Part shown: positions 43,929-61,794 of the stretch, piece after piece
Layout: each line of letters begins with the position of its first letter
Numbering within the stretch: position 1 is the stretch's first letter
Origin: Dictyobacter arantiisoli
GTDB lineage: Bacteria; Chloroflexota; Ktedonobacteria; Ktedonobacterales; Ktedonobacteraceae
DNA length: 64,000 bases
Direction: 5' to 3'
Assembly (NCBI RefSeq): GCF_008326305.1
Contig: NZ_BIXY01000021.1
Coordinates: forward strand, 1-64,000
The notes under the pieces: model-generated
The model's database searches: none
What the model saw: only the letters and a program-made list of their open reading frames with translations
What the model was told of the DNA's origin: nothing
Made by a program: the position numbers and the translations under genes

Positions 43929-44714
43929 TCAGGCGTTTCTGGTCTTGCCCAGGTTGCCAGGAATGTCTTTATTCAGGCCAATATGGTTGACGACGACGCG
44001 TACACCGGGGATACCGACGACCTCGCGCTCCAACGCATATTTCATACTTGAATTGGGGACATCTCCATACAGATGTAAAATATAATTCTCGACCAGAACA
44101 GAGATATTTTTTGCACCTTCGAGCTTGCCCTGCGTCTTCAGCTTTTCGATGCGACTGTAAGCACCCTCCAGGATGCTATCTTCGGCAACAACGAAGTTAC
44201 GTACGCTGGCTACGCCCGGTACTTGACTGACTTCGGCTTCCAGACGTTCACGCTGAACCATGAGCTCAACTTTCCCATACAGGGTGATGACGGCACCTTC
44301 TGGCGTCTCGCTCTCAAGTTCCGCTTTAATTGGATGGATACTATAGGCTGTGCTGCCAAAGGTAACCACCCGCTCAACAGCTGCGCGTGCATTGTCCAGT
44401 ACTTCACTACCAGGCAATATCACAACCGGCCTGGCTGTCGCTACCCCTGCATGAGCACCCATAGGATCTTCCAGTGCCCAACCAAGGATACCGATAAAGA
44501 CAAAGACGGCTGCCACTAGCGTCAGCCAGGGGGCATCAGGAACAAACAATAGTCCAACCACGGCGACCAGAATGAAGGCGCTTAACAGAAACGGCCACGC
44601 ACTGGGTCCGGGCATATGGATATGGTGTTCCGCCTCTTCTGCGTCCTGATATGTCTCAAGGGACGAATCAACATCATCCACTGCGAGATTTACTCTTTGA
44701 AGAGATGATTCCAT
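43929..44714 (-). CDS. Membrane protein with two BON domains
   Basis: About 261 residues. An N-terminal acidic cytoplasmic stretch (about 45) precedes two close membrane helices (WPFLLSAFILVAVVGLLFV, then TLVAAVFVFIGILGWAL). Two BON-type lipid-binding domains follow: the first around VITLYGKVELMVQRERLEAEVSQVPGVASVRN, the second around LYGDVPNSSMKYALEREVVGIPGVRVVVNH, each with the conserved central Gly. BON proteins such as OsmY bind envelope lipids under stress. ATG at 44714 with GGAGGAG upstream. Function is not defined; no neighbour explains it. Confidence 0.8.
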   Translation of the reverse strand: MESSLQRVNLAVDDVDSSLETYQDAEEAEHHIHMPGPSAWPFLLSAFILVAVVGLLFVPDAPWLTLVAAVFVFIGILGWALEDPMGAHAGVATARPVVILPGSEVLDNARAAVERVVTFGSTAYSIHPIKAELESETPEGAVITLYGKVELMVQRERLEAEVSQVPGVASVRNFVVAEDSILEGAYSRIEKLKTQGKLEGAKNISVLVENYILHLYGDVPNSSMKYALEREVVGIPGVRVVVNHIGLNKDIPGNLGKTRNA

Positions 44715-44881
44715 ACGCTCTCGCTCTCCTCCGCGAATGGTATACAATCAGCGCGGACTGATATATTTTTCGTAATAGTAGTCCTGTACGTCTAAGCATA
44801 GCAAATATATATGCTTCGTGCAACCTGACGGAAGCTACCCCTTCGCTGCCTTGAAGGGCTTGCCATCCCATATTTCTCTAT

Positions 44882-46533: not shown

Positions 46534-47187
46534 TTATTTTTCTTGTAGTAATTGTTTCAGGTTAGCGGCCATCTGTGCTGGTTGAAAGTCGTCGCCCATA
46601 TAGACGCGTTCGCGTCCCTGTTTATCGATCAGATAGAGTGCGGTCGTATGGTTAATACTCTGCTTGAACGATTGGGCGTTGATGCTATATTTGCTCCAGA
46701 TTGGTGAAAGTTCTTGCTGGGTTCCTGTCAAGAAGTGCCAGGAATTCTGCATATTATGTTCGGTTGAAAATTGCAGTGCCGCCTGCGTGGTATCTCCTTT
46801 AGGATCAGTACTGACCGCCAGGATACCTACTTTGCTGGCATCGGAGCCCATTTGTAACAGGGCCGTGTGCAGATGCTCCGCCGTTAGTGGGCAGACATCA
46901 GGACAGTGCGTGTAGAGAAAGGTCACCACCAGCGGTTTGCCGTGGAATTGCGCGAGCGAAACCGTTTTGCCGTATTGATCGGTGAGCTGGAAGCCAGGTG
47001 CCGGTGTGCCACCGAGATCCGTCCCCTGCAATTGCAATGTGGACGTTGTGCTGGTCGTTGCACCACCACTTTGAGCCGGTACGTTTGTGCGCTGGTGTTG
47101 AATCAGTGCTACCACGATCACGACAACGATGGCGAGTGTTATTACTGATAGGCGCGAAGCAAGCCGCCAGTTCATACGTATACTCAT
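46534..47187 (-). CDS. SCO1/SenC-type copper chaperone for cytochrome oxidase
   Basis: 217 residues. An N-terminal membrane anchor (about 13-30) precedes an extracytoplasmic thioredoxin-fold domain with the copper-binding CPDVC pair in YTHCPDVCPLTAEHL and a downstream His in SWHFLTG. SCO proteins load copper into the CuA site of oxidase subunit II. It is downstream of ctaB by 18 bp in the same operon and divergent from coxB, a consistent oxidase assembly context. Confidence 0.93.
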   Translation of the reverse strand: MSIRMNWRLASRLSVITLAIVVVIVVALIQHQRTNVPAQSGGATTSTTSTLQLQGTDLGGTPAPGFQLTDQYGKTVSLAQFHGKPLVVTFLYTHCPDVCPLTAEHLHTALLQMGSDASKVGILAVSTDPKGDTTQAALQFSTEHNMQNSWHFLTGTQQELSPIWSKYSINAQSFKQSINHTTALYLIDKQGRERVYMGDDFQPAQMAANLKQLLQEK

Positions 47188-47205: not shown

Positions 47206-48120
47206 CTAGAAAAGCACTCGGTCTACCACCATTATCGCGAAGATCGCAGCCAGATAGCAGTTGGAGTACCAGAAAATAGTGCGTGCCCATTTGTGCTGTT
47301 TGTCTATCAACAGGCGAACCGACATATAAATCAGAATGCTGTCCATAATGACGACACTGACCAGATACAGATAGCTCATGGTATGCATAAGGAAAGGCAT
47401 CAGTGTCACGGCTCCCAGCAAGAGCGAATAGAAGAAGATCTGGCGTCGTGTTTCGGCCTCGCCAAACATCACCGGCATCATCGGCACATTTACCTTGGCA
47501 TAGTCTTTTTGAATGAGTAATGCGAGTGCCCAGAAGTGTGGCGGGGTCCAATAAAAGACGATCGCGGTCAGCCAGATCGCATCCAGTGAAATATAATTGG
47601 TCGCGGCAGTCCAGCCGATCAGAACCGGAAGTGCGCCCGGCAGGCCACCGATCACAATATTCTGAGCGGTTGTGCGTTTGAGCCCCATCGTATAGATCAC
47701 AACATAAAACAGGATCGCGCCCAATCCCAGGGCCGCACTCAACAGATTGACAAAGAATCCGAAGACGAGGCAGGATAAGACACCCATGACGAGGCCAAAG
47801 ATCAGGGCCTGACGGGGCTGCACTTTACCAGCAGGTAAAGAGCGGCGCTGCGTACGTCCCATAATCTGGTCGATGTCGCGGTCAATATAGCAATTAATCG
47901 AATTCGCGCTTCCTGCCGCCAACGTTCCACCGAGCAGCGTTGCCAGCACCAATCCTAGATTGGGTAGACCCCGATCTGCGATGGCCATGGTTGCGAGAGT
48001 TGTCCCCAGTAACAACACAGTTACGTGTGGTTTCATCAGATTGATATAGGCGGAAAGTGTCTGACGCCAGGCACTCTCTTGCTTTGGTTCTTCAATCTCG
48101 GTATGGCTTAACACCTTCAT
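47206..48120 (-). CDS. ctaB: Protohaem IX farnesyltransferase (haem O synthase)
   Basis: 304 residues with about nine membrane helices, UbiA prenyltransferase family. The first Asp-rich motif NCYIDRDIDQIMGRTQRR binds farnesyl diphosphate; the second conserved loop includes YTPPHFWAL-like WTPPHFWAL and KDYAKVNVPMMP. It converts haem B to haem O, required for the caa3 oxidase encoded divergently. ATG start. No ctaA (haem A synthase) gene is visible in the window. Confidence 0.95.
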   Translation of the reverse strand: MKVLSHTEIEEPKQESAWRQTLSAYINLMKPHVTVLLLGTTLATMAIADRGLPNLGLVLATLLGGTLAAGSANSINCYIDRDIDQIMGRTQRRSLPAGKVQPRQALIFGLVMGVLSCLVFGFFVNLLSAALGLGAILFYVVIYTMGLKRTTAQNIVIGGLPGALPVLIGWTAATNYISLDAIWLTAIVFYWTPPHFWALALLIQKDYAKVNVPMMPVMFGEAETRRQIFFYSLLLGAVTLMPFLMHTMSYLYLVSVVIMDSILIYMSVRLLIDKQHKWARTIFWYSNCYLAAIFAIMVVDRVLF

Positions 48121-48700
48121 GTACAGGCTCCCTTTTCGTCTATAGAGTTTGACGTCTCCTATTTTCGGCGTCGTTCCTGATACTGCCCTTGCAGTAGCTT
48201 TCTCTTACCTTACAATTGCCTGAACGTTTGTAATTGATTGGATCGAAAGAAAAAGCTCCTGGTAGAGAAATTTCCCTTGTCGCTCTTTCCTTCCCTTGCT
48301 ATAGTATGTAAAAGGATTTGTGGAGCGGTCAGCAATGATGTGAACTGATGTCGAACTCAACTTTTGGATGATCCCATAACAGTAGGAACCAATCCTTATT
48401 CCGGGAACTGCAATTCTTGTTGTCTGTTAGAATTATCTGCCAAAATTCTAGAGATACTGTTCACATGCTCTTTTTTGCTGGTATGCTTTTGCCTGGCACA
48501 ACCAATTGATCAGCCTGCTACTCCCGAATACTGAGGAGAAGGCGCTTCTTCGTTCAGGCTCTTGTAAGGTTCCTTTTTTAAATTGCAAGTTCCATGTCAG
48601 GCTCTATAGCTACATTACAGCGTATAGTGGAACAATGTCGCCAAAATGAGAGACATCATCGTCCATCATCAAAGAATTGTTTTTTAGGAGAGATTTAGAC
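48121..48700. other. 580-bp divergent region between haem O synthase and oxidase operon
   Basis: It holds a candidate rightward promoter (48277-48305) far upstream of coxB and a small inverted repeat TAGAATT...AATTCTA (48428-48450). If the promoter is real, the coxB leader is almost 400 nt. No gene with a good ribosome site is visible. Confidence 0.4.
48277..48305 (+). promoter_or_regulatory. Candidate promoter for the oxidase operon
   Basis: TTGTCG (48277-48282), 17-base spacer, TATAGT (48300-48305). The match is fair; a nearer promoter cannot be excluded. Confidence 0.4.
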
Positions 48701-49849
48701 GTGAGGATGCCGGTATTTCGTAGGAAAAAGCACTGGTTAGCTGCGCTGACCGGAGTGCTTTTATCCTCTATTCTATTAGCCGCATGCGGCGAAAACTCAC
48801 CTTCTATCTTGAACGTCGCGGGACCAGTGGCAGAGAGCGAGAGTAGCCTGTTCTGGTTGATTCTTTATCTTGCTCTAGCCATTTTCATCCTGGTAGAAGG
48901 TGTATTGATCTACTCCATTTTCAAGTATCGTGAACGTCCTGGAACTCCAAACCCATACCAGAACCACGGTAACATGTTATTGGAGCTTGTCTGGACCGTT
49001 ATTCCAACGGTGGTCCTATTTGTGATCTTATTCTTCACTATTCGCGGCCTATTGCAAGTCGCGCCGGAGGCTGAACCAGCCGCCTCAGCATCACAGCCGA
49101 AAATCGAAGTGACTGCTGTTGGTCACCAGTGGTACTGGGAATTCTATTATCCAAAGTACAATGTGACCACTGCCGATACTCTGGAAGTGCCGGTGGGTAC
49201 GACTGTGCACGTCAAACTATTCTCAAATAATGTCATCCACAGCTTCTGGGTCCCTTCCTTAACAGGTAAGACCGACGTTGTGCCGGGCCACGACAATACC
49301 AAATGGTTTGTGGCACAAAAGACCGGGTTATTCACAGGTATCTGCGCCGAGTATTGTGGTACACAGCACGCCAACATGCGTTTCAATGTCAACGTAGTGG
49401 ACAACAGCAGCTTCATGACCTGGATTTCGGGTCAGCAACAGGCTGCCGCTGCTCCAACAGACGCACTGGCACAAAAGGGTGAAGCATTATTCAAAAATCA
49501 GTGTGCCTCCTGTCATGGTATTGTCGGCGTAAATGTGACGCAGTTCTACAATACAGCCCAGGAATGTACCGATCTGCCAGGTGGTAAAGCCAACGGCACG
49601 CCACAGTGTTTGATTGGACCAAATCTGACGCACTTCGGTAGCCGCTCTCTGATTGCTGGTGGTGTATTGGATAACAATACCAAAGATAATAATTGCGATC
49701 CAAATAATCCGAACCTGATGCAATCCTGTAATCTCGCGAAATGGCTGAAAGATCCTCAGGCGGTCAAACCTGGGAACGATATGGCTATTGGCGCACTCAG
49801 TAATGCCGAGATTCAGCAATTGATTGCATACCTTGAAGGGTTGAAATAA
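48701..49849 (+). CDS. coxB: Cytochrome c oxidase subunit II with fused cytochrome c domain (caa3 type)
   Basis: About 382 residues. A lipoprotein-type signal (LLAAC) and two membrane helices precede a cupredoxin domain with the CuA ligands in GHQWYWEF and CAEYCGTQHANM. A C-terminal cytochrome c domain follows with CASCHG haem attachment and a distal Met probably in NDMAIG. This makes it a caa3-type oxidase that accepts electrons through its own haem c. GTG at 48701 is chosen because AGGAGA lies 9 bases upstream. It needs both SCO1 (copper) and the Ccm genes at 58-64 kb (haem attachment). Confidence 0.95.
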   Translation: MRMPVFRRKKHWLAALTGVLLSSILLAACGENSPSILNVAGPVAESESSLFWLILYLALAIFILVEGVLIYSIFKYRERPGTPNPYQNHGNMLLELVWTVIPTVVLFVILFFTIRGLLQVAPEAEPAASASQPKIEVTAVGHQWYWEFYYPKYNVTTADTLEVPVGTTVHVKLFSNNVIHSFWVPSLTGKTDVVPGHDNTKWFVAQKTGLFTGICAEYCGTQHANMRFNVNVVDNSSFMTWISGQQQAAAAPTDALAQKGEALFKNQCASCHGIVGVNVTQFYNTAQECTDLPGGKANGTPQCLIGPNLTHFGSRSLIAGGVLDNNTKDNNCDPNNPNLMQSCNLAKWLKDPQAVKPGNDMAIGALSNAEIQQLIAYLEGLK

Positions 49850-49902: not shown

Positions 49903-51591
49903 ATGGCAACTAGCACGATCGGTGAGCGCGCTACAACCATAGATGTTCGCCGAAAGCGTTTTAGTGAAACCTATATCGGTGAGTGGATTACAACGACCGA
50001 TCATAAGCAACTCGGTCTGATGTATCTGATCACAGGTTTCTTTTTCTTTGTTGTGGGTGGCATGGAGGCTCTCCTGATCCGCACCCAGCTGGCCTTGCCA
50101 AATGGTAAAGTATTAGATCCTGATACCTATAATCAGATCTTTACCATGCATGGCACGACCATGATCTTCTTGTTCGTGATACCAGTGCTCTCGGGTTTTG
50201 GTAACTATATCGTGCCGCTGATGATTGGTGCACGCGATATGGCCTATCCCCGTATGAATGCCTTTGGCTTCTGGCTCCTACTCTTTGGTGGTATCTTCAT
50301 GCAGTCCAGCTTCCTGTTTGGTCAGGCACCAAACGGCGGCTGGTTTATGTATGCGCCATTGAGTGAGCTGGCGGCTGGACATGCCTTCCAGGCGACTCCG
50401 CACATGAATGCGGACTTCTGGCTGCTGGGTACCACCTTACTGGGTATCTCGTCGATCACCGGTTCTTTGAACTTTGTTGTCACGGTCTTCAAATTGCGCG
50501 CTCCTGGCATGAGCATTAACCGCATGCCGCTGTTCACATGGATGATCCTGGTGATGTCCTTCCTGTTGCTGTTCGCGTTGCCAAGCCTGACCGTTGCCAG
50601 CGTCTTGTTGCTGCTGGACCGTCACATGGGTGCGCATTTCTATCAGTATGGCAGTGGTGGTGATCCACTTCTCTGGCAACACCTGTTCTGGTCCTTCGGA
50701 CATCCCGAAGTATACATCCTGATTCTCCCGGCCTTTGGTATTGTCTCTGAGATTCTGCCGGTCTTCTCGCGTAAACCGATCTTTGGCTATACCTTTATCG
50801 CCTGGTCCGGTGTTGCGATTGGCTTCTTGAGCTTTACCGTCTGGGCCCACCATATGTTCGCAGTTGGTCTGCCATCGATTGCGCAAGCCTTCTTTGCGAC
50901 CAGCACGACCCTGATCGCCATTCCAACGGCTGTCAAAATCTTCAACTGGCTGGCGACGATCTGGGGTGGTAAGATTCGCTTTAACGCGCCGATGCTCTTC
51001 GCATTGGGCTTTATCGCGATGTTCCTGATTGGTGGTCTGAACGGCGCTGCCCTGGCGGTCGTGCCTTTTGACTACCAGATCACAGACAGCTACTTCGTCG
51101 TGGCGCATATCCACTATGTGCTCTTCGGTGGTACTGCGCTGGCCGTGTTCGCGGGCATCTACTACTGGTTCCCGAAATTCACCGGCAAGTTGATGGATGA
51201 CCGTCTGGCAAAGTGGCACTTCTGGGTCACCTTTATTGGTCTGAACCTGACCTTCTTCCCAATGCACCTCATGGGTATTCTGGGCATGCCTCGGCGCGTC
51301 TATACCTATCCAGCCAATCTGGGTTGGAATGATTTGAATGCCATGGCTTCGGTTGGTGCCTTCATCATTGGTGTAGGCGTAATCCTGTTCATGATCAACA
51401 TTATCAAGAGCCTGAAGGCCGGGCAGGCCGCTGGCGATGATCCCTGGGATGCCTATACGCTGGAATGGGATACCACATCTCCTCCGAAAAAATATAACTT
51501 CCTGGAGATTCCGGTGGTGCGTAGCCGCCGTCCCTTCTATGACAAGAAGTATCCTGATATTGCTGACTGGAAAAACGTCATTAAGCACTAA
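49903..51591 (+). CDS. ctaD: Cytochrome c oxidase subunit I
   Basis: 562 residues with 12 or more membrane helices. Haem-copper ligands are visible: MHGTTMIFLF (low-spin haem His), FGHPEVYILILPAFG (CuB His with the crosslinked Tyr, and the Glu of the D channel), WAHHMF (CuB His pair), and VVAHIHYVLFGG (haem a and a3 His). The GHPEVY sequence marks an A1-type oxidase. It reduces O2 to water and pumps protons. GGAGG lies upstream of the ATG. Second gene of the oxidase operon. Confidence 0.97.
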   Translation: MATSTIGERATTIDVRRKRFSETYIGEWITTTDHKQLGLMYLITGFFFFVVGGMEALLIRTQLALPNGKVLDPDTYNQIFTMHGTTMIFLFVIPVLSGFGNYIVPLMIGARDMAYPRMNAFGFWLLLFGGIFMQSSFLFGQAPNGGWFMYAPLSELAAGHAFQATPHMNADFWLLGTTLLGISSITGSLNFVVTVFKLRAPGMSINRMPLFTWMILVMSFLLLFALPSLTVASVLLLLDRHMGAHFYQYGSGGDPLLWQHLFWSFGHPEVYILILPAFGIVSEILPVFSRKPIFGYTFIAWSGVAIGFLSFTVWAHHMFAVGLPSIAQAFFATSTTLIAIPTAVKIFNWLATIWGGKIRFNAPMLFALGFIAMFLIGGLNGAALAVVPFDYQITDSYFVVAHIHYVLFGGTALAVFAGIYYWFPKFTGKLMDDRLAKWHFWVTFIGLNLTFFPMHLMGILGMPRRVYTYPANLGWNDLNAMASVGAFIIGVGVILFMINIIKSLKAGQAAGDDPWDAYTLEWDTTSPPKKYNFLEIPVVRSRRPFYDKKYPDIADWKNVIKH

Positions 51592-51639: not shown

Positions 51640-52017
51640 ATGGTGTCTCAAGAACAAAAAGATCATGTAGAGCAACAAGTAGTAGATGAGCAGGAGGAGG
51701 ACGCAGGCGTCTCTTCTCCTGACACCACCCCGACCCCCGACTCTGCATTATCTGATGATAAGCAGGAGTCACAGCCGGAGGCCGCGACAACGGGGGGGCA
51801 GCAACAAGCAGTCCGTACAGGCAAGCGTCGGGGACGAGCCAGAGGACGTCTGGTCAATGCCGAAGAGGTGATGCCAAAGCCAAGCCTCTGGCCGCTGGCC
51901 GTGGCTTTCTCTATCGCGTTCGTGCTGTTTGGTGTGATTGCCGGTCTTGTTGTCCTTGTGATCGGTGTCATACTCCTTGTTGCATCGATTGTGGGTTGGA
52001 TACTGGAGCGTCGATAA
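51640..52017 (+). CDS. Small membrane protein within the oxidase operon
   Basis: 125 residues: an acidic, Gln/Pro/Thr-rich N-terminal half (1-60), a basic stretch RTGKRRGRARGR, then two hydrophobic helices near the C-terminus (LWPLAVAFSIAFVLFGVIAGL and VLVIGVILLVASIVGWIL). The location between ctaD and coxC and the hairpin of membrane helices suggest a small oxidase subunit, analogous to subunit IV, but I recognise no family motif. ATG with AGAGG upstream. Confidence 0.7.
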   Translation: MVSQEQKDHVEQQVVDEQEEDAGVSSPDTTPTPDSALSDDKQESQPEAATTGGQQQAVRTGKRRGRARGRLVNAEEVMPKPSLWPLAVAFSIAFVLFGVIAGLVVLVIGVILLVASIVGWILERR

Positions 52018-52090
52018 GAGAGAGCCTGTGTTTGCTACTTTGGTAGCGGACACAGGTGATTATTCTCGCGTAGTTAAGGGAGTGACTTGT

Positions 52091-52711
52091 ATGAGTGTTG
52101 CTCATGGCGAGCAAGTACGAGTGTTGGAAGAAGAGCACGGCCAGGTAGGTGAACGGAGCCTCAACTGGTGGGGCATGGTCTTTTTCATCGCCTCTGAGGC
52201 TCTGATCTTCGCCAACCTGATTGCTGCTTACCTCTATCTAGAGATTCGTAACAACAACGATATCTGGCAATTGCCGCATAGCAATCTGTTTTTGCCTCTG
52301 CTCAATACCGCTATCCTGCTTGGTAGTAGCGTTTCAGTGCATTTTGCAGGCACTGGTATTCGCAAAGGCAATGTAAGGCAGCTAATCATTGGTTTAAGTG
52401 TCACCATTTTCCTGGGTGCCTGTTTCTTGGTTGGTCTGGCCTATGAATGGACCTCATTGATTGCTGACGAGCATTTCAGTATCTCCAGCAGCATTTTTGG
52501 TTCAGCCTTTTTCACGCTGACAGGCTTTCACGGTCTGCACGTCACCATCGGTGCGATCTTCCTGGCCGTCTGTCTGGTGCGTGCCACGAAGGGCCATTTT
52601 AGCAAGCAGCAGCATTTCGCTGTCCAGGCGGCTGAAATGTACTGGCACTTTGTGGACGTGGTCTGGCTGTTCGTCGTAACATTGGTCTACTTTGTACCGC
52701 TGTTCCGCTAA
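52091..52711 (+). CDS. coxC: Cytochrome c oxidase subunit III
   Basis: 206 residues with about five membrane helices. Typical motifs are WWGMVFFIASEALIFANLIAAYLYL, FFTLTGFHGLHVTIGAIFL and EMYWHFVDVVWLFVVTLVYF near the C-terminus. It stabilises proton uptake by subunit I. ATG at 52091 with AGGGAG upstream is preferred over the longer frame that would overlap the preceding gene. Last gene of the operon, followed by a hairpin. Confidence 0.95.
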   Translation: MSVAHGEQVRVLEEEHGQVGERSLNWWGMVFFIASEALIFANLIAAYLYLEIRNNNDIWQLPHSNLFLPLLNTAILLGSSVSVHFAGTGIRKGNVRQLIIGLSVTIFLGACFLVGLAYEWTSLIADEHFSISSSIFGSAFFTLTGFHGLHVTIGAIFLAVCLVRATKGHFSKQQHFAVQAAEMYWHFVDVVWLFVVTLVYFVPLFR

Positions 52712-53611: not shown

Positions 53612-55630
53612 ATGTCCTCCTCCATTGAAAAAAAACACAGCAAAACCACCGGTGGATTGTGGATTGCGGAGAATGCTGCGCCAGTAACCCCACATCCAGG
53701 TAGACCTACAGAACCTATCCCCGCAGGTTTTACGCGTGAGTATCAGGTTCTCGCAGAAATGTGCGCCAGCATGAGTAGTGGCTTTATGCTCCTTAATCAG
53801 CATGGCCGCGTAACCTATTCGAATGAAAGTGCTTTGCGCCTGTTGCGTGTTGATGTACGGGATCGTTCCGCGTTTCAGGAATTTGATGTCCAGGAGCATT
53901 TGCTGGCTCTGTCAACCGATCCACAACATGCCAGAGCAGATCTGGAACAACTCTGGCAGCATCAGGATCAGGAGCGGTCAACTGATCTCTCATTGATTGA
54001 TGCTGCCGCCAACTGGTTACGTGTACGCAGTTTTCCTGTCCATGATGAGCAGGGTCGCAGCCTGGGTCGTGGTGTGTTGCTTGATGATATTACTCTGGAA
54101 CGTTCCGCGGCCGCATCCCGGACCGAGACGTTGATGATGGCGGCGCATGAGTTTAAAACGCCACTGGCTATTATTAAGGGTTGTGCGACCACCCTGCTGG
54201 GTGGCTCCGCGCGCTGGGACCCCTCCATGCAGCGCGAGATGTTACAGATGATCGATGCACAGTCTGATCGCTTGTATGATGTCTTAAATACGCTGCTAGA
54301 TGTCTGGCGCTTTGATGCGGGCACTCAACCGCTGCATCTTGCTCAGGTCCAGCTCTCCGAACTTATCTTACAATTGATTACACGCTGGCAGAAGCAGTCT
54401 CCTGAGCATCGCTTTGTCCTGGATCTGCCCGATGATGTGCCTACGGTAACCTGTGATGCGTTGCGTATCGAGCAAACCCTGAATCACTTGCTGAATAACG
54501 CGGTGAAAAATTCGCATGCCGGACAAATTGTGCGGACAATGCTTGATTTTACGGCTGGCGAGTTGCGGGTGAGCGTGAGCGATGAGGGTATCGGCATCGC
54601 GTCAGAACATCTGGAGCGTATCTTTGATCGCTTTTATCGCATTGAGCAGGCCAGTAAAGCCCACAATGAACACGAGGATGCCGCTCTGTCGGATGAGCCG
54701 GGGGGAAGTGGGTTGGGACTCTCAGCGGCACGCGCGACTATTGAAGCACATCGAGGGCGCATCTGGGCTGAGTCGGCAGGACCGGGCAAGGGCGCTACCT
54801 TTTTCTTCACCTTACCATTAAACGCCAGCCGTTACGCTCCTATAGAGACTTTGACTGCGCTTGAGGAGCCGGAAACGAGTAGTGGAGTGACCGGACCGTT
54901 GCGCAAAACGCGCACGTCGTCTCTGGATCAGGGCCGCCATGTGCGTGTCCTGCTGGCGGAGAATGATGCTCGCCTGGCACGCTATATTCGTGCCAATTTA
55001 GAAGAGCAGCAATATCGGGTACGGGTCGTCACCCATGGTATTCAATTCTTACGTCAGTTGGATTTGGAAGAGACGGATGTGATTTTGCTCTCTACCCAGC
55101 TTGCGGATATGAGTGGTGCAGAGTTGCTCAAGCGCTTGCGTGAATTCTCCCATGCGCCAGTAATCATGCTCTGTGATGCCTGTGATGAGGATGAGCGGGT
55201 GCAGATGTTTGAACTGGGTAGCGATGATCTGGTTGTCAAACCTTTTGGGATGCGTGAGTTGTTGGCACGCGTACGTGCCCTCTTGCGTCGTCAGGGACCA
55301 CCAGCCGAGCAGAAGCAACAACCGTCAATTTTCACAACTGGCGAGCTGACCATCGACTATGCGCAGCATCAGGTGACGGTGCGTGGACAGGCTGTTCAGT
55401 TGAGCCGTACCGAGTATAAACTGCTCAGCACTCTGGCGCAGAATGTTGGCCTGGTCGTGACGCATGAGTTATTGCTGGAAAAGGTCTGGGGGCCGGAATA
55501 CAATCGCGATATTGACTTTATCTGGGTCTATATCAGTCGCCTGCGCCGTAAAATCGAGGCGAACTCGCGCCATCCTGAATATATCCTTACCGTACCGGAT
55601 GTAGGCTATAAATTAGCCAGGCATGCATAA
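53612..55630 (+). CDS. Cytoplasmic histidine kinase fused to a degenerate receiver and OmpR-type winged helix
   Basis: 672 residues in one chain. A PAS-like domain (about 45-150) is followed by HisKA with the phosphorylatable His179 in AAHEFKTP. The HATPase follows with NHLLNNAVK, DEGIGI and GGSGLGLS. A receiver-like domain (about 444-560) is next, and a PhoB/OmpR-type winged helix (about 570-670) ends the protein. In the receiver the phospho-acceptor Asp of the LLD motif is Ser494 (VILLSTQL) and the switch Thr is Cys (MLCDA), while Lys543 (VKPF) remains. No membrane segment exists. Kinase and DNA-binding output in one protein is uncommon. It may signal by conformation, or pass phosphate to the receiver protein encoded next. 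Confidence 0.9.
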   Translation: MSSSIEKKHSKTTGGLWIAENAAPVTPHPGRPTEPIPAGFTREYQVLAEMCASMSSGFMLLNQHGRVTYSNESALRLLRVDVRDRSAFQEFDVQEHLLALSTDPQHARADLEQLWQHQDQERSTDLSLIDAAANWLRVRSFPVHDEQGRSLGRGVLLDDITLERSAAASRTETLMMAAHEFKTPLAIIKGCATTLLGGSARWDPSMQREMLQMIDAQSDRLYDVLNTLLDVWRFDAGTQPLHLAQVQLSELILQLITRWQKQSPEHRFVLDLPDDVPTVTCDALRIEQTLNHLLNNAVKNSHAGQIVRTMLDFTAGELRVSVSDEGIGIASEHLERIFDRFYRIEQASKAHNEHEDAALSDEPGGSGLGLSAARATIEAHRGRIWAESAGPGKGATFFFTLPLNASRYAPIETLTALEEPETSSGVTGPLRKTRTSSLDQGRHVRVLLAENDARLARYIRANLEEQQYRVRVVTHGIQFLRQLDLEETDVILLSTQLADMSGAELLKRLREFSHAPVIMLCDACDEDERVQMFELGSDDLVVKPFGMRELLARVRALLRRQGPPAEQKQQPSIFTTGELTIDYAQHQVTVRGQAVQLSRTEYKLLSTLAQNVGLVVTHELLLEKVWGPEYNRDIDFIWVYISRLRRKIEANSRHPEYILTVPDVGYKLARHA

Positions 55631-55863: not shown

Positions 55864-56484
55864 ATGTCGCAAGGGCTACAGCCATCAGTTTCGACGGTCC
55901 TGTTATTGGAGACTGATCCTTCCATTCGGCGTATGATTACGCTTGGTCTACGCCATCGTGGACTCCATGTGATCGAGTCCATTTCATTGTCAACTCTTTC
56001 TGCTCGTGATGTGCAAAAATTGGATTTACTGATTGTAGATGTTGATGATGGAATTCGTTGTGACCGGGCTATGCTTGAAGCCGCTCAGGCACATCCGCAA
56101 TTGTCAGCCTTACCTACGGTCGTGCTGTCCTGGGAGCCTCTGATAGAACAGAAGGATCAGCAGGTGGCTGTGACCAAGCCCTTTGACGCACGCGCTTTGC
56201 ACGCCGGGATTGACCAATTGCTGCTGGCGCGTAGTGCCGCACAGATCCAGCAACTACAACAGGCCGAGGCTCTCCTTCTGGCGTCCTATGCTAAACATAC
56301 TGCTCCCAGCATCTGGCCTGCCATCACTGCTGCGGGTGTGCTACTGGTTGTGATTGGTTTATTGTTACAATTTGCGATCACCATTATTGGCCTGCTCGTG
56401 ATTGTCTGTGGATTGCTGTTATGGACTATTGGCTCCCATACATCAGTTGAGAAGCCTGAATTGTCTCTCACTGTGGGTAAATGA
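55864..56484 (+). CDS. Receiver-domain protein with C-terminal membrane hairpin
   Basis: 206 residues. The receiver domain (about 10-120) has the acidic pair in LLLETDPS, phospho-acceptor Asp59 in LLIVDVDDG, the Ser/Thr switch in VVLSW and Lys105 in VTKPF. A helix rich in Gln and Leu (about 125-145) leads to two adjacent membrane helices (about 151-170 and 171-190). There is no DNA-binding or enzymatic output domain. Receivers tethered to the membrane by a C-terminal hairpin are unusual. It follows the fused kinase, whose own receiver has lost its Asp, so it may be the actual phosphate acceptor; that is inference. Confidence 0.8.
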   Translation: MSQGLQPSVSTVLLLETDPSIRRMITLGLRHRGLHVIESISLSTLSARDVQKLDLLIVDVDDGIRCDRAMLEAAQAHPQLSALPTVVLSWEPLIEQKDQQVAVTKPFDARALHAGIDQLLLARSAAQIQQLQQAEALLLASYAKHTAPSIWPAITAAGVLLVVIGLLLQFAITIIGLLVIVCGLLLWTIGSHTSVEKPELSLTVGK

Positions 56485-58076: not shown

Positions 58077-58192
58077 GTGCGTAAAAAATGTTCAGGACAT
58101 TGTAAGGTGAGAGGGAAAGCCTGCAAGTTGGCTATCAGGCTCAAGCACCATAATCGTGGTGATGTTCTTTAGTTTGTGAGAATTGTGCTGTT

Positions 58193-58804
58193 ATGGAAAT
58201 AAATGATTCGCTGACCAGAAGATCCCGCAAGCGTAATATTATCGTCTTTATTGTGACGAATGTGTTGATCGTTGGCCTGCTGGTGCTATTATGGACTCAA
58301 CTTATGACTCCTAAAGTGGGTCTGACCCATTCACCGGATGAAAGTCTGGTGACAGTCGGAGATCTGCCCAGCCCACTTCTGGGCAAGCCCGCCCCTGGCT
58401 TTGCTTTGCCTTTGTTGCAGGGGAATGGTCAGAAAGTGAGTCTCTCTGATTTTAAAGGCAAGCCGGTGCTCATTAATTTCTGGGCGTCGTGGTGCGATCC
58501 CTGTAATCTTGAGGCTCCTTTTTTGCAGAACAAGTGGCCGGGATTGCAGTCCAAAGGCATTGTGATGCTGGGTATTGATGGCGGTGAGATGGCCAGTGCC
58601 GGTCAGGCATTTTTGAAAAAGTATAACATTAGCTATACCAATGTCGCTGATACTATCGGGGGCAATACAAGTCTGGCCTATGGTGTTTCCCAGATGCCGG
58701 AGACGTTTTTTATTAATGCGGATGGCAAGGTTGTGGCGCGCTGGGCCGGGCCACTGGATGATACAAATCTGCAAAAAGAATTAGCCAAACTGCATATGAA
58801 TTGA
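58193..58804 (+). CDS. TlpA/ResA/CcmG-like membrane-anchored thioredoxin
   Basis: 203 residues. A membrane anchor (about 15-36) precedes an extracytoplasmic thioredoxin-like domain: APGFALPLLQGNGQKVSLSDFKG, active site FWASWCDPCNLEAP (CxxC), GIDGGEM, and the cis-Pro region SQMPETFFI. In cytochrome c maturation such proteins reduce the CxxCH cysteines of apocytochrome c. It is the first gene of an apparent operon with CopD-like, CcmE, CcmF and CcmH genes, supporting a CcmG role. Confidence 0.9.
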   Translation: MEINDSLTRRSRKRNIIVFIVTNVLIVGLLVLLWTQLMTPKVGLTHSPDESLVTVGDLPSPLLGKPAPGFALPLLQGNGQKVSLSDFKGKPVLINFWASWCDPCNLEAPFLQNKWPGLQSKGIVMLGIDGGEMASAGQAFLKKYNISYTNVADTIGGNTSLAYGVSQMPETFFINADGKVVARWAGPLDDTNLQKELAKLHMN

Positions 58805-58817
58805 GGCGAGCATCGCT

Positions 58818-59276
58818 ATGTGGGAAATTCGCTGGATCGTTCGTCTTATCCATATTCTGGCCGCGAGTGTCTGGGTGGGTGGCAGTTTTATGTATCTGGC
58901 GGTGGTGATGCCAGCTCTGCGCCTGGGTGGACCCGCGCCAGCCGTGGCGGCGAAAGTGGCTGAACTCTTTAAGAAGATGGTCAATATATGCGTCGGGCTG
59001 TTATTATTCAGTGGTGCTTACCTGACGGTGGATCGTCTGACACAGACGCAATTGGGTTTGAGCTATATCGTCGTCCTTGTGCTGAAAATAATTGGTGCTC
59101 TCGGCTTATTTGTCCTGGCCGTCTATCTCAGTCAGAGTAATATTCGGCGTTTGGCGAAGCGCAAGACGCGTCTCTCGCAGGCCTCTCCCCAACTGATGTT
59201 AGCCCTGGGCATTCTGGTATTTATATTTGGTGCATTGCTCAACGCTTTGTTTGAGAACACCCTTGCGCCACATTGA
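58818..59276 (+). CDS. CopD-like four-helix membrane protein
   Basis: 152 residues with four membrane helices. The first holds RLIHILAASVWVGGSFMYL, matching the HxxxxxxWxGG pattern of the CopD/DUF2269-type domain; the last holds ALGILVFIFGALLNALF. CopD-type proteins are linked to copper import or haem-copper protein assembly. It starts 13 bp after the thioredoxin gene and sits before ccmE, so a role in haem or copper handling at the membrane is likely but unproven. Confidence 0.75.
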   Translation: MWEIRWIVRLIHILAASVWVGGSFMYLAVVMPALRLGGPAPAVAAKVAELFKKMVNICVGLLLFSGAYLTVDRLTQTQLGLSYIVVLVLKIIGALGLFVLAVYLSQSNIRRLAKRKTRLSQASPQLMLALGILVFIFGALLNALFENTLAPH

Positions 59277-59289
59277 TGGAGGTCGTATT

Positions 59290-59754
59290 GTGCAGCCTGC
59301 TTTAGACGTTTTGGATGCTTCCAGAGAGGGGTTGAAGAGAACAGCACCGCCGCGCAAGCGTGTCCCGTTCAGCTTTATCCTGGCCGGAATCGCTATCCTG
59401 GGTGCCATTATCTATCTTGTCTATGCCAATACCCAGGCCAGCGCGGTCTATTATTTGACGGTGCCAGAGCTGAAGCATTGTACCGATTGTGTTGCGCGCT
59501 CGGTGCGTGTGGCGGGTGTGGTACAGAACAACTCGGTGAAGCATACCAGTCAGGATCAGAGCATCTCGTTTACGATTACGGATAGCAATCAGACCTTGCC
59601 GGTCACTTACAGTGGAGTTGTGCCAGACATTTTTCGTGCTGGCGTTCAGGTCGTCGTGGAGGGTCACTATACTGGCAGTGGTGCGTTCCATGCTCAAACA
59701 TTGTTAGCGAAGTGTCCATCGAAATTTCAGTCTGCGACTCCTACCGCAAATTAA
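59290..59754 (+). CDS. ccmE: Cytochrome c maturation haem chaperone CcmE, Cys variant
   Basis: About 154 residues. One membrane helix (about 28-46) precedes a beta-barrel OB-fold domain: RVAGVVQNNSV, ISFTITDSNQTLPVTYSGVVPDIFRAG and VVVEGHYTGSGAFHAQTLLAKCPSKF. In the family the haem-binding residue is His in LAKHDENY; here the aligned residue is Cys142 (LAKCPSKF). Cys forms with a CxxxY motif are known in some bacteria and archaea; here the Tyr position is Phe146. GTG at 59290 with GGAGG upstream. It receives haem and passes it to CcmF. Confidence 0.88.
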   Translation: MQPALDVLDASREGLKRTAPPRKRVPFSFILAGIAILGAIIYLVYANTQASAVYYLTVPELKHCTDCVARSVRVAGVVQNNSVKHTSQDQSISFTITDSNQTLPVTYSGVVPDIFRAGVQVVVEGHYTGSGAFHAQTLLAKCPSKFQSATPTAN

Positions 59755-59763
59755 GGATTGACT

Positions 59764-61794
59764 GTGTACTTCTCAGATCTCGGCATTATTGCGCTTGTGT
59801 TAGCTTTAGGGTTTGCCATTTATACTGTTATCGCCTCGGTCGTGGGAGCGGTGCGTTCCGTGCCTCAACTGGTGGTGAGCGCGAAGCGCGGCCTGCTGGC
59901 AGTCACCTTTTTCTTTGTGCTGGCAGCCATAGCATTAATCGTGTCTTTCCTGACGCATGATTTTGGCGTCAACTATGTGGCTCAGCATTCCGATCTCTCG
60001 ATGCCCTGGTATTTTGTGACTGCGGCTTTTTATGGCGGTCAAGAAGGATCTCTGCTCTACTGGGCCCTGATGCTTTCGATCTTCTCGGCCATCTTTGTGT
60101 TTACCTCCAAACGTGCGCCAGCCGCGCTGGTGCCCTATGTGATGGCGACCTTGATGGCAATTGAAATCTTCTTCCTGATCGTGCTGACGGTCATCTCAAA
60201 TCCTTTTACGCGTTCAACAGTTGCGCCCCACGATGGCGCGGGCCTGAATCCATTGTTGATGGACCCCGGCATGCTAGTGCATCCTCCTACCTTGCTGATG
60301 GGCTACATGAGTTTTTCGGTGCCCTTTGCATTCGCCGTGGCCGCTCTGATTACGGGTCAGTTGAATGCCGAGTGGTTGCGCTCGATACGCCGCTGGATGC
60401 TGGCTTCATGGATGTTACAGACGGCTGGCCTCTTGCTGGGTGCCTGGTGGGCCTATCATGTATTGGGCTGGGGCGGCTATTGGAGCTGGGACCCCGTGGA
60501 GAATGCGGCGCTTTTACCCTGGCTGACGGCGGGCGCGTTCTTGCATTCCACGATGGTGCAGGAGCGTCGAGGCATGTTGAAGGTCTGGAACCTCTTTCTG
60601 GTGATTACCTCCTTTGCCCTCTCCATTTTTGGCACCTTTGAGGTGCGTAGCGGACTGATTAGTTCGGTCCACTCGTTTGCCTATTCTGCTATCGGTAGCT
60701 ATTTCCTGGTCTTTTTGATCATTGTGGTGGTCTTTTCCAGTGCCCTGTTTCTATTCCGTCTGCCGCACTTACGTCCTGAGCAGACATTTGATTCGGTGGT
60801 ATCGCGTGAGGGTGTCTTCTTACTGAATAACTTTTTGCTGGTCGGTATCACCTTTGCCGTTCTGTGGGGAACGCTGTTCCCATTGATTTCGGAGGCTTTC
60901 CAGGGACAGACAATGACGATGGGTCCTCCCTTTTATGATCAGGTGGTGGGTCCGTTGGCGGTAGTGCTGATCCTGGCGATGGGTATTGGTCCTCTGCTTG
61001 GCTGGCGGCGTACTTCCGCGCAGGCGCTGTGGCGCAACGCCAGTGTCCCTGCTATCGCGGCGGCTGTCTGTGCGGTTCTGCTGCCAGTGCTGGGGATTAC
61101 GGATGTGGTGGCCAATATTGGCTTCTCGGTCTGTGCTTTTACGGCTGGAGCAATCTTCTATGAACTCTGGCGTGGAGCGCGCGTACGTCATAGCCATGGT
61201 GAGCCATATGGCATGGCGGTATTTATGCTCTTTAAGCGTTACCGTCAGCGTTATGGTGGCTATGTGGTACATCTGGGCATGATCTTATTAGTCGCGGGTA
61301 TTATTGGTTCGCAGTTCTTCCAGCAGGAGAAGGACGCTGACCTGCATCCCGGACAAGATATGTCGGTGGGTGGCTATACCTTCACCTATCTTGGCAATAT
61401 CGATGCTAAGGATACGGATCGTGAGACGGTCTCTTCACAGGTACAGATCTGGCACGATGGTAAGCTGATTCAATATGTTTATCCGGGTCGTATTACCTAT
61501 AGCAGTTATCCCACGCAGCCAACCAGTGCGATTGTGATCAATACCTATGGGGTCACAGATGTCTATATCTATCTGGCGGATTGGCAGGGGGCATCGCAGG
61601 CCAAGTTGAGTGTCTTTATTAATCCGCTGGTATCCTGGGTCTGGGCAGGTGGCGTCTTGATGCTGCTGGGAGGATTCCTGTGCTGGTGGCCGACGCGTCG
61701 CCGGGCGGTGTCCGCTGTCCGAGCACCTCAATCGACTGCAGTGCCGGAGGCGTCCAGTTCATCCAGTGTGCCTGATGGAGGTGTGATCGCATGA
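59764..61794 (+). CDS. ccmF: Cytochrome c haem lyase CcmF
   Basis: About 676 residues with about 13-14 membrane helices. The WWD haem-handling motif is WGGYWSWDPVENAALLPWL, flanked by conserved His residues (MLVHPPTLLMGYM). The C-terminal soluble domain lies before a last helix (WVWAGGVLMLLGGFLCWW). It joins haem from CcmE to apocytochrome CxxCH outside the membrane. GTG at 59764 with AAGGA six bases upstream; a TTG two codons earlier is an alternative. It overlaps ccmH by 4 bases. No ccmABC genes are seen in the window. Confidence 0.95.
   Translation: MYFSDLGIIALVLALGFAIYTVIASVVGAVRSVPQLVVSAKRGLLAVTFFFVLAAIALIVSFLTHDFGVNYVAQHSDLSMPWYFVTAAFYGGQEGSLLYWALMLSIFSAIFVFTSKRAPAALVPYVMATLMAIEIFFLIVLTVISNPFTRSTVAPHDGAGLNPLLMDPGMLVHPPTLLMGYMSFSVPFAFAVAALITGQLNAEWLRSIRRWMLASWMLQTAGLLLGAWWAYHVLGWGGYWSWDPVENAALLPWLTAGAFLHSTMVQERRGMLKVWNLFLVITSFALSIFGTFEVRSGLISSVHSFAYSAIGSYFLVFLIIVVVFSSALFLFRLPHLRPEQTFDSVVSREGVFLLNNFLLVGITFAVLWGTLFPLISEAFQGQTMTMGPPFYDQVVGPLAVVLILAMGIGPLLGWRRTSAQALWRNASVPAIAAAVCAVLLPVLGITDVVANIGFSVCAFTAGAIFYELWRGARVRHSHGEPYGMAVFMLFKRYRQRYGGYVVHLGMILLVAGIIGSQFFQQEKDADLHPGQDMSVGGYTFTYLGNIDAKDTDRETVSSQVQIWHDGKLIQYVYPGRITYSSYPTQPTSAIVINTYGVTDVYIYLADWQGASQAKLSVFINPLVSWVWAGGVLMLLGGFLCWWPTRRRAVSAVRAPQSTAVPEASSSSSVPDGGVIA

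Follow-up and report, generated by a model that had tools for sequence, protein, structure and literature searches.

Results

A cytochrome oxidase locus with a one-chain regulator

The window analysed here, a 64-kb stretch of the 7.2-Mb genome of a member of the Ktedonobacterales, carries a cytochrome oxidase locus in which a gene for a 672-residue protein, designated HKR, lies downstream of the oxidase genes (Table 1). In the source genome's own family of soil bacteria, Ktedonobacteraceae (f1, 29 genomes), and in the sister family f3, ctaB-SCO1 is divergent from coxB-coxA-(COX4-like gene)-coxC-P3-HKR-P2, and the next genes after P2 are usually those of a ccmG/TlpA-CopD-like-ccmE-ccmF operon. 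The product of the COX4-like gene is likely the oxidase's small subunit IV; its reading frame overlaps the start of the listed coxC ORF. P3, a conserved small protein, gave no match in Pfam or NCBIfam and is possibly a zinc or redox partner. A BON-domain protein encoded near ctaB and SCO1 (43929-44747, minus strand) also has a hairpin with a weak Cyt_c_ox_IV match (E 1.5e-4); the same PSxWP-type hairpin is carried by different heads across the locus. Upstream of HKR lies a conserved block resembling TTGACT/TAAAAT, with a spacing that does not suit a single sigma-70 promoter.

Table 1 Genes, protein domains and candidate operators of the locus (positions in the window)
Feature	Position	Strand	Basis or remark
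SCO1/SenC, inferred target with ctaB	46534-47187	-	
ctaB (UbiA family, heme O synthase type), inferred target	47206-48120	-	
Candidate operator upstream of ctaB-SCO1	48176-48224	-	
Candidate operator upstream of coxB	48553-48601	+	-10-like TACATT at 48611-48616
coxB (subunit II with cytochrome c), inferred target	48677-49849	+	
coxA (subunit I)	49903-51591	+	
COX4-like small subunit, relative of the P2 hairpin	51640-52017	+	Cyt_c_ox_IV 28.6 bits, cut-off 26.9 bits
coxC (subunit III)	51965-52711	+	
P3, Cys-rich (CxxC...CxxC) head and one C-terminal TM helix	53019-53432	+	Directly upstream of HKR in f1 and f3
HKR, PAS-HisKA-HATPase-pseudoreceiver-winged-helix one-chain regulator, 672 aa	53612-55630	+	Pfam, AlphaFold2 model, orthologues
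HKR PAS domain, residues about 54-164	53771-54103	+	PAS_9 just under cut-off; AlphaFold2 model
HKR HisKA/DHp, phospho-acceptor His179 at 54146-54148, H-E-F-K-T-P intact	54119-54322	+	Pfam, alignment
HKR HATPase_c, N, G1 and G2 boxes intact	54455-54823	+	Pfam, alignment
HKR pseudoreceiver, Ser494, Asn451, Cys521 and Leu540 changed, Lys543 kept	54947-55276	+	Pfam, alignment
HKR OmpR/PhoB-type winged helix, recognition helix DIDFIWVYISRLRRKIE	55385-55615	+	Pfam, alignment
Candidate operator upstream of P2	55744-55792	+	Second pair variant
P2, diverged receiver followed by COX4-like membrane hairpin (about 56299-56442)	55864-56484	+	
Candidate operator upstream of the ccmG/TlpA-CopD-like-ccmE-ccmF operon	58091-58139	+	
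ccmG/TlpA-like, CopD/DUF2269-like, ccmE, ccmF, inferred target operon	58193-61794	+	

HKR joins an intact kinase to a receiver lacking its phospho-acceptor

HisKA (residues 170-237), HATPase_c (282-404), Response_reg (446-555) and Trans_reg_C (592-668) all scored above the curated Pfam cut-offs. The third domain is a receiver by the sequence model (70.5 bits), and the C-terminal winged helix that follows it (81.7 bits) is of the OmpR/PhoB type. PAS_9 at residues 56-161 reached 26.6 bits against a cut-off of 27. An AlphaFold2 model (mean pLDDT 74, pTM 0.39) contained a PAS domain, a DHp coiled coil, a CA domain, a (beta-alpha)5 receiver and a winged helix in the order given by Pfam; because of the low pTM, relative domain positions were not used. 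HKR has no hydrophobic or membrane segment (maximum 19-residue Kyte-Doolittle mean 1.30), and its PAS domain shows no invariant His or Cys ligand pattern among the aligned orthologues. The single soluble chain proposed in a sequence-only reading of this DNA is thus borne out by Pfam, the model and the lack of a hydrophobic stretch.

The same reading had described the kinase motifs as intact, and the alignment agrees: across 25 orthologues there is no variation at H179, N296, D324, G326, G328, G367 or G369. It also confirmed a Ser in place of the receiver's phospho-Asp (Ser494, codon 55091-55093, within VILLSTQL) and a Cys in place of the switch Thr (Cys521). Two further losses had been missed, that of the second acidic residue (DD2), now Asn451, and that of the K-3 aromatic residue, now Leu540. 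The first acidic residue (Glu450) and Lys543 are retained. With Ser, Ala or Glu at the Asp position, DD2 lost and the Thr mostly lost, HKR has the sequence of an aspartate-less receiver.

Loss of the acceptor is conserved within Ktedonobacteraceae

A full-length, single-frame HKR orthologue was found in all 29 f1 genomes, with 58-77% identity across 24 f1 relatives; the closest named orthologue is that of Ktedonospora formicarum (65%). The Asp position is occupied by Ser or Ala in every one of the 29, so that the check suggested earlier, a search for the same domain order and a conserved Ser in other genomes, was passed within this family. In genus g13 the Ala is followed by an Asp, together with a one-residue deletion; since one member has Asn in place of that Asp, it is not a kept acceptor. 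A scan of named genomes yielded only three true orthologues (L035-L037), and in the other 77 loci, which are non-orthologous, the single-ORF fusion was not recognised.

Pairwise dN/dS in the HKR receiver is far below 1 (for example, dN 0.02-0.05 against dS 0.3-0.7 in close relatives) and, in close-relative pairs, is as low there as in the PAS and ATPase domains. Purifying selection acts on the receiver, and there is no decay. An explanation of Ser494 as a sequencing error or the mark of a decaying gene has virtually no chance of being right, being refuted by the 29 genomes, the purifying selection and the conserved synteny; nothing was found in its favour. The earlier prediction that the output would not be switchable by Asp phosphorylation of HKR's own receiver is supported. 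Because f1 retains the full set of kinase motifs, some phosphotransfer function must be selected there.

The relay is broken at a different place in each lineage

In the tree of the receiver-winged-helix half, the HKR proteins of f1, f3 and f4 form one clade (support 100/100). The only f3 genome (G026) encodes a complete kinase with Glu at the Asp position and Asn at DD2. Nine f4 sequences (31-40% identity) keep Asp at the acceptor position, but their kinase is dead, as all nine lack the N-box Asn and the G1 Asp and seven lack the His. Most of them have also lost the PAS domain; DD2 is missing from eight of the nine receivers, the Thr from most and the Lys from some. Seven of the nine f4 genes lie head to head with ctaB and beside coxB, and by this position they are HKR orthologues. 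The relay is therefore interrupted at a different place in each family, by Ser or Ala beside an intact kinase in f1, by Glu beside an intact kinase in f3 and by a dead kinase beside an Asp in f4, so that no lineage has a competent in-chain His-to-Asp pair. The best-kept domain across lineages is the winged helix. Orthologues with an Asp, named in the sequence-only reading as what would expose the Ser as a one-off error, do exist in f4, but with the f4 kinase dead they give no ground for calling the Ser an error.

No HKR orthologue was identified in one f4 genome (G031), which had only a separate histidine kinase/response regulator pair that grouped with the HKR paralogues of the source genome. 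The f2 genomes contained neither an HKR orthologue nor a matching coxA.

A four-half-site candidate operator precedes the cytochrome genes

Within-genus alignment revealed a block shared by the upstream regions of coxB and P2. The full candidate operator reads TTCAGG-N5-GTAAGG-N15-GCAAGN-N5-RTCAGG, with four hexamers at offsets 0, 11, 32 and 43 on one helix face, and a -10-like hexamer (TACACT, CATAAT or GACAAT, for example) begins 9 nt after it, a distance that is fixed across sites. In PhoB-type activation, the last half-site adjoins the -10 element at the -35 position. The hexamer geometry fits the direct repeats of OmpR/PhoB sites, which are about 11 bp apart; regulators of the OmpR type bind repeats at this distance, with further copies one or two turns off, 11 or 22 bp in ArcA (PMC3798270).

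Within the window there are exactly four copies of the core TTCAGG-N5-GTAAGG, one each before ctaB, coxB, P2 and ccmG, versus none in 100 dinucleotide shuffles. The whole genome holds five matches, four of them in the window, and the reversed control gave none. The fifth, on contig 86, was taken as a chance match since it has no second half of the array, no -10 and no downstream ORF. The strict operator pattern was found in 29/29 f1, 1/1 f3, 6/11 f4 and 0/6 f2 genomes, whereas the reversed control matched in none of them; relaxed inspection added the f4 genomes G039, G037 and G042. The f2 result is a weak negative control because coxA is absent there as well as HKR. Where sites in other genomes lie far from HKR, they still precede ctaB, coxB or ccmG. 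In f4, where the kinase is dead, the array is retained both in the HKR-ctaB interval and ahead of coxB.

HKR and ctaB share one operator-bearing intergenic region at seven f4 loci (L142, L144, L145, L146, L148, L149 and L150), from which f4 HKR may regulate itself. In G010 (L156, about 9524, minus strand), a TGTAAGG-N4-TGTAAGG pair lies upstream of HKR itself, possibly a degenerate operator for autoregulation.

Outside the order, the pattern occurred in one of 263 genomes (G259), upstream of coxB (L225, G259:C46, about 9158). The closest HKR relative in that genome (L226, G259:C419) is a stand-alone canonical OmpR-type regulator with its Asp intact and YLWAY in the recognition helix, compared with an FIWVY-like signature in HKR from f1 to f4; the four nearest HKR paralogues examined in the source genome have MLQVN or YLRLY. 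The G259 regulator may resemble HKR's ancestor, a lead from a fragmented assembly with 9% contamination in which the regulator is not firmly placed in the tree.

P2 combines a diverged receiver with a COX4-like hairpin

The head of P2 has a receiver fold. Asp59 and Lys105 are kept in 20/20 aligned members and the Asp in 22/22; Glu16 is invariant and the second acidic residue is lost in all members. P2 thus departs from a canonical receiver, in which the DD pair, Asp, Thr/Ser and Lys are all present, and most single sequences fall below the Pfam receiver cut-off. Its hairpin matched Cyt_c_ox_IV (PF12270) in 12/20 members at E<=0.1 (best 5e-5), all below the cut-off, and a profile comparison paired it with the product of the COX4-like gene that separates coxA from coxC (probability 97%, E 7e-11, 48 columns). 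P2 perhaps sits near the oxidase. It is present alongside an intact kinase in 24/25 f1 genomes and in f3, and was not detected in f4, where the kinase is dead and one weak off-locus match (E 7e-6) was seen. P2 is thus the best candidate acceptor for the HKR kinase, although a single contrast between lineages is slender evidence.

Discussion

A probable phosphorylation-independent regulator of cytochrome oxidase

Taken together, HKR is probably a conserved OmpR/PhoB-type regulator that works without phosphorylation and is still covalently fused to what was its sensor kinase; most likely it activates the genes for cytochrome oxidase and cytochrome-c assembly. The kinase module would supply dimerisation and a cytosolic PAS/ATP input. 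Lacking both the phospho-Asp and the Y-T switch, the pseudoreceiver would be locked and would serve for spacing and dimerisation, while the winged helices would bind the four-half-site operator, whose last half-site would replace the -35 element 9 nt before the -10; from these operators HKR would drive ctaB-SCO1, coxBAC, P2 and ccmGEF. The signal would travel by conformation through the PAS/kinase module without Asp phosphorylation, and HKR might be turned off by conformational control through the PAS domain and kinase or by control of its amount. The intact kinase would serve another acceptor, with P2 as the best candidate.

The operator persists both in f4, whose kinase is dead, and in f1, whose receiver has no acceptor; this suggests that output is independent of Asp phosphorylation. 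The last half-site stands at the -35 place beside the -10, the PhoB-type geometry, so activation by HKR is likely as read from this geometry. Two double mutants of the PhoB receiver, D53A/Y102C and D10A/D53E, are titled constitutively active in the PDB; f1 HKR alters the same two positions as the former, and f3 HKR, which has Asn at DD2 and Glu in place of the Asp, resembles the latter. For the hybrid two-component systems (HTCSs) of Bacteroides, tethering of the DNA-binding domain to a histidine kinase dimer has been proposed to promote its dimerisation (PMC11253607), and by the same argument fusion to a kinase dimer would favour dimeric binding by HKR.

Other readings of the locus

That HKR is the protein on the operator is inferred from sequence, and many other OmpR-type regulators of the genome could each bind it: 79 receiver domains are encoded, and REC-wHTH proteins are numerous. 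A different regulator would then occupy the operator, HKR would act on other sites or none, and the linkage would be coincidental. This is improbable, given that HKR and the operator share the same taxonomic range and locus across 36 genomes, that the FIWVY-like signature is kept from f1 to f4 and absent from the four nearest paralogues examined, and that a similar YLWAY helix is found in the regulator of the sole outside genome with the operator. A receiver modified at another residue, Ser494 itself or Asp499, might alternatively control the output. Modification of some regulators on Ser or Thr is known, and Asp499 is nearly invariant in the HKR alignment. Yet position 494 is Ala in part of f1, Asp499 is off the acceptor position, DD2, the Thr and the K-3 residue are lost as well, and the Asp next to the acceptor position in g13 has given way to Asn in one member; we regard this alternative as very improbable.

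A further reading is compatible with phosphorylation-independent control of the cytochrome genes: the HKR kinase would pass phosphate in trans to membrane-anchored P2, and its DNA binding would serve location or feedback, because P2 is itself under the operator. The receiver fold of P2, its conserved Asp59 and Lys105, its gene adjoining HKR and carrying the operator, and its occurrence with intact kinases speak for it. Set against these are the absence of the metal-binding second acidic residue from all members, the scores of most single sequences, below the Pfam receiver cut-off, and the fact that the association of kinase and P2 amounts to one or two evolutionary events. We hold it as a tentative possibility. 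A bolder form, in which DNA-bound HKR phosphorylates the receiver-like domain on the COX4-like hairpin, controls the P2 gene and so links the oxidase promoters to a membrane receiver, perhaps at the oxidase, would be rather unlikely on the sequence evidence.

Relation to known systems

A literature search found no paper on Ktedonobacter two-component systems or single-chain hybrids. A kinase that carries its own DNA-binding domain, which the sequence-only reading had called rare, proved to be shared by others. Bacteroides HTCSs combine kinase, receiver and DNA-binding domain in one chain as membrane glycan sensors with a phosphorylation-competent receiver, and at least one of them, BT4236, is without the His (PMC11253607). 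HKR is HTCS-like in holding all three modules in one chain, but it has no hydrophobic stretch that would make it a transmembrane sensor kinase, nor a receiver that its fused kinase could phosphorylate, the acceptor Asp being absent in f1 and f3 and the kinase in f4. It thus differs from the HTCSs in being soluble, in its OmpR-type winged helix, in a relay that is dead in every lineage and in a predicted cytochrome-oxidase regulon. Among 301 Chloroflexota genomes, four further single-ORF HK-REC-wHTH fusions were found outside the order (L182-L185); they have HKR's core domain order, but all keep the receiver Asp, and none of the three included in the tree belongs to the HKR clade. The L182 fusion has an additional N-terminal receiver.

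Bacillus ResDE, in which two separate proteins form a canonical relay, is linked to genes for heme, cytochrome oxidase and cytochrome c biogenesis. HKR resembles it in the linked gene set and differs in being a fused chain without a canonical relay. ChxR (PMC3960148) and HP1043 (PMC5253667) are stand-alone OmpR/PhoB-type regulators without a phospho-Asp, whereas the pseudoreceiver of HKR shares its chain with a kinase that has complete motifs. In a survey of ALRs, Ser made up 15% of the substitutions, and the first acidic residue and the Lys were usually kept while the second acidic residue was lost (PMC4395418), a pattern that HKR follows. ShkA and CikA join kinase and pseudoreceiver in one chain, and the pseudoreceiver can control the kinase; as described there, unlike HKR, they have no in-chain DNA-binding output (PMC12632262). 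HKR combines an atypical response regulator with an HTCS-like fusion, both of known kinds, and its predicted operator target is the new part.

Biological meaning

The key facts lie outside the HKR gene itself (53612-55630), in the operator set, the cytochrome-oxidase locus and the COX4-like hairpin of P2. How pseudoreceivers switch was called a mystery in a 2025 review (PMC12632262). HKR offers a pseudoreceiver and an intact kinase in one chain, four predicted operators and three natural breaks of the relay within one order. These features make it testable whether a kinase module controls DNA binding by conformation alone, and HKR gains in interest from the small size of its predicted regulon and from a relay broken in several ways. 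A two-component system seems here to have been turned into a one-chain, phosphate-independent regulator of respiration.
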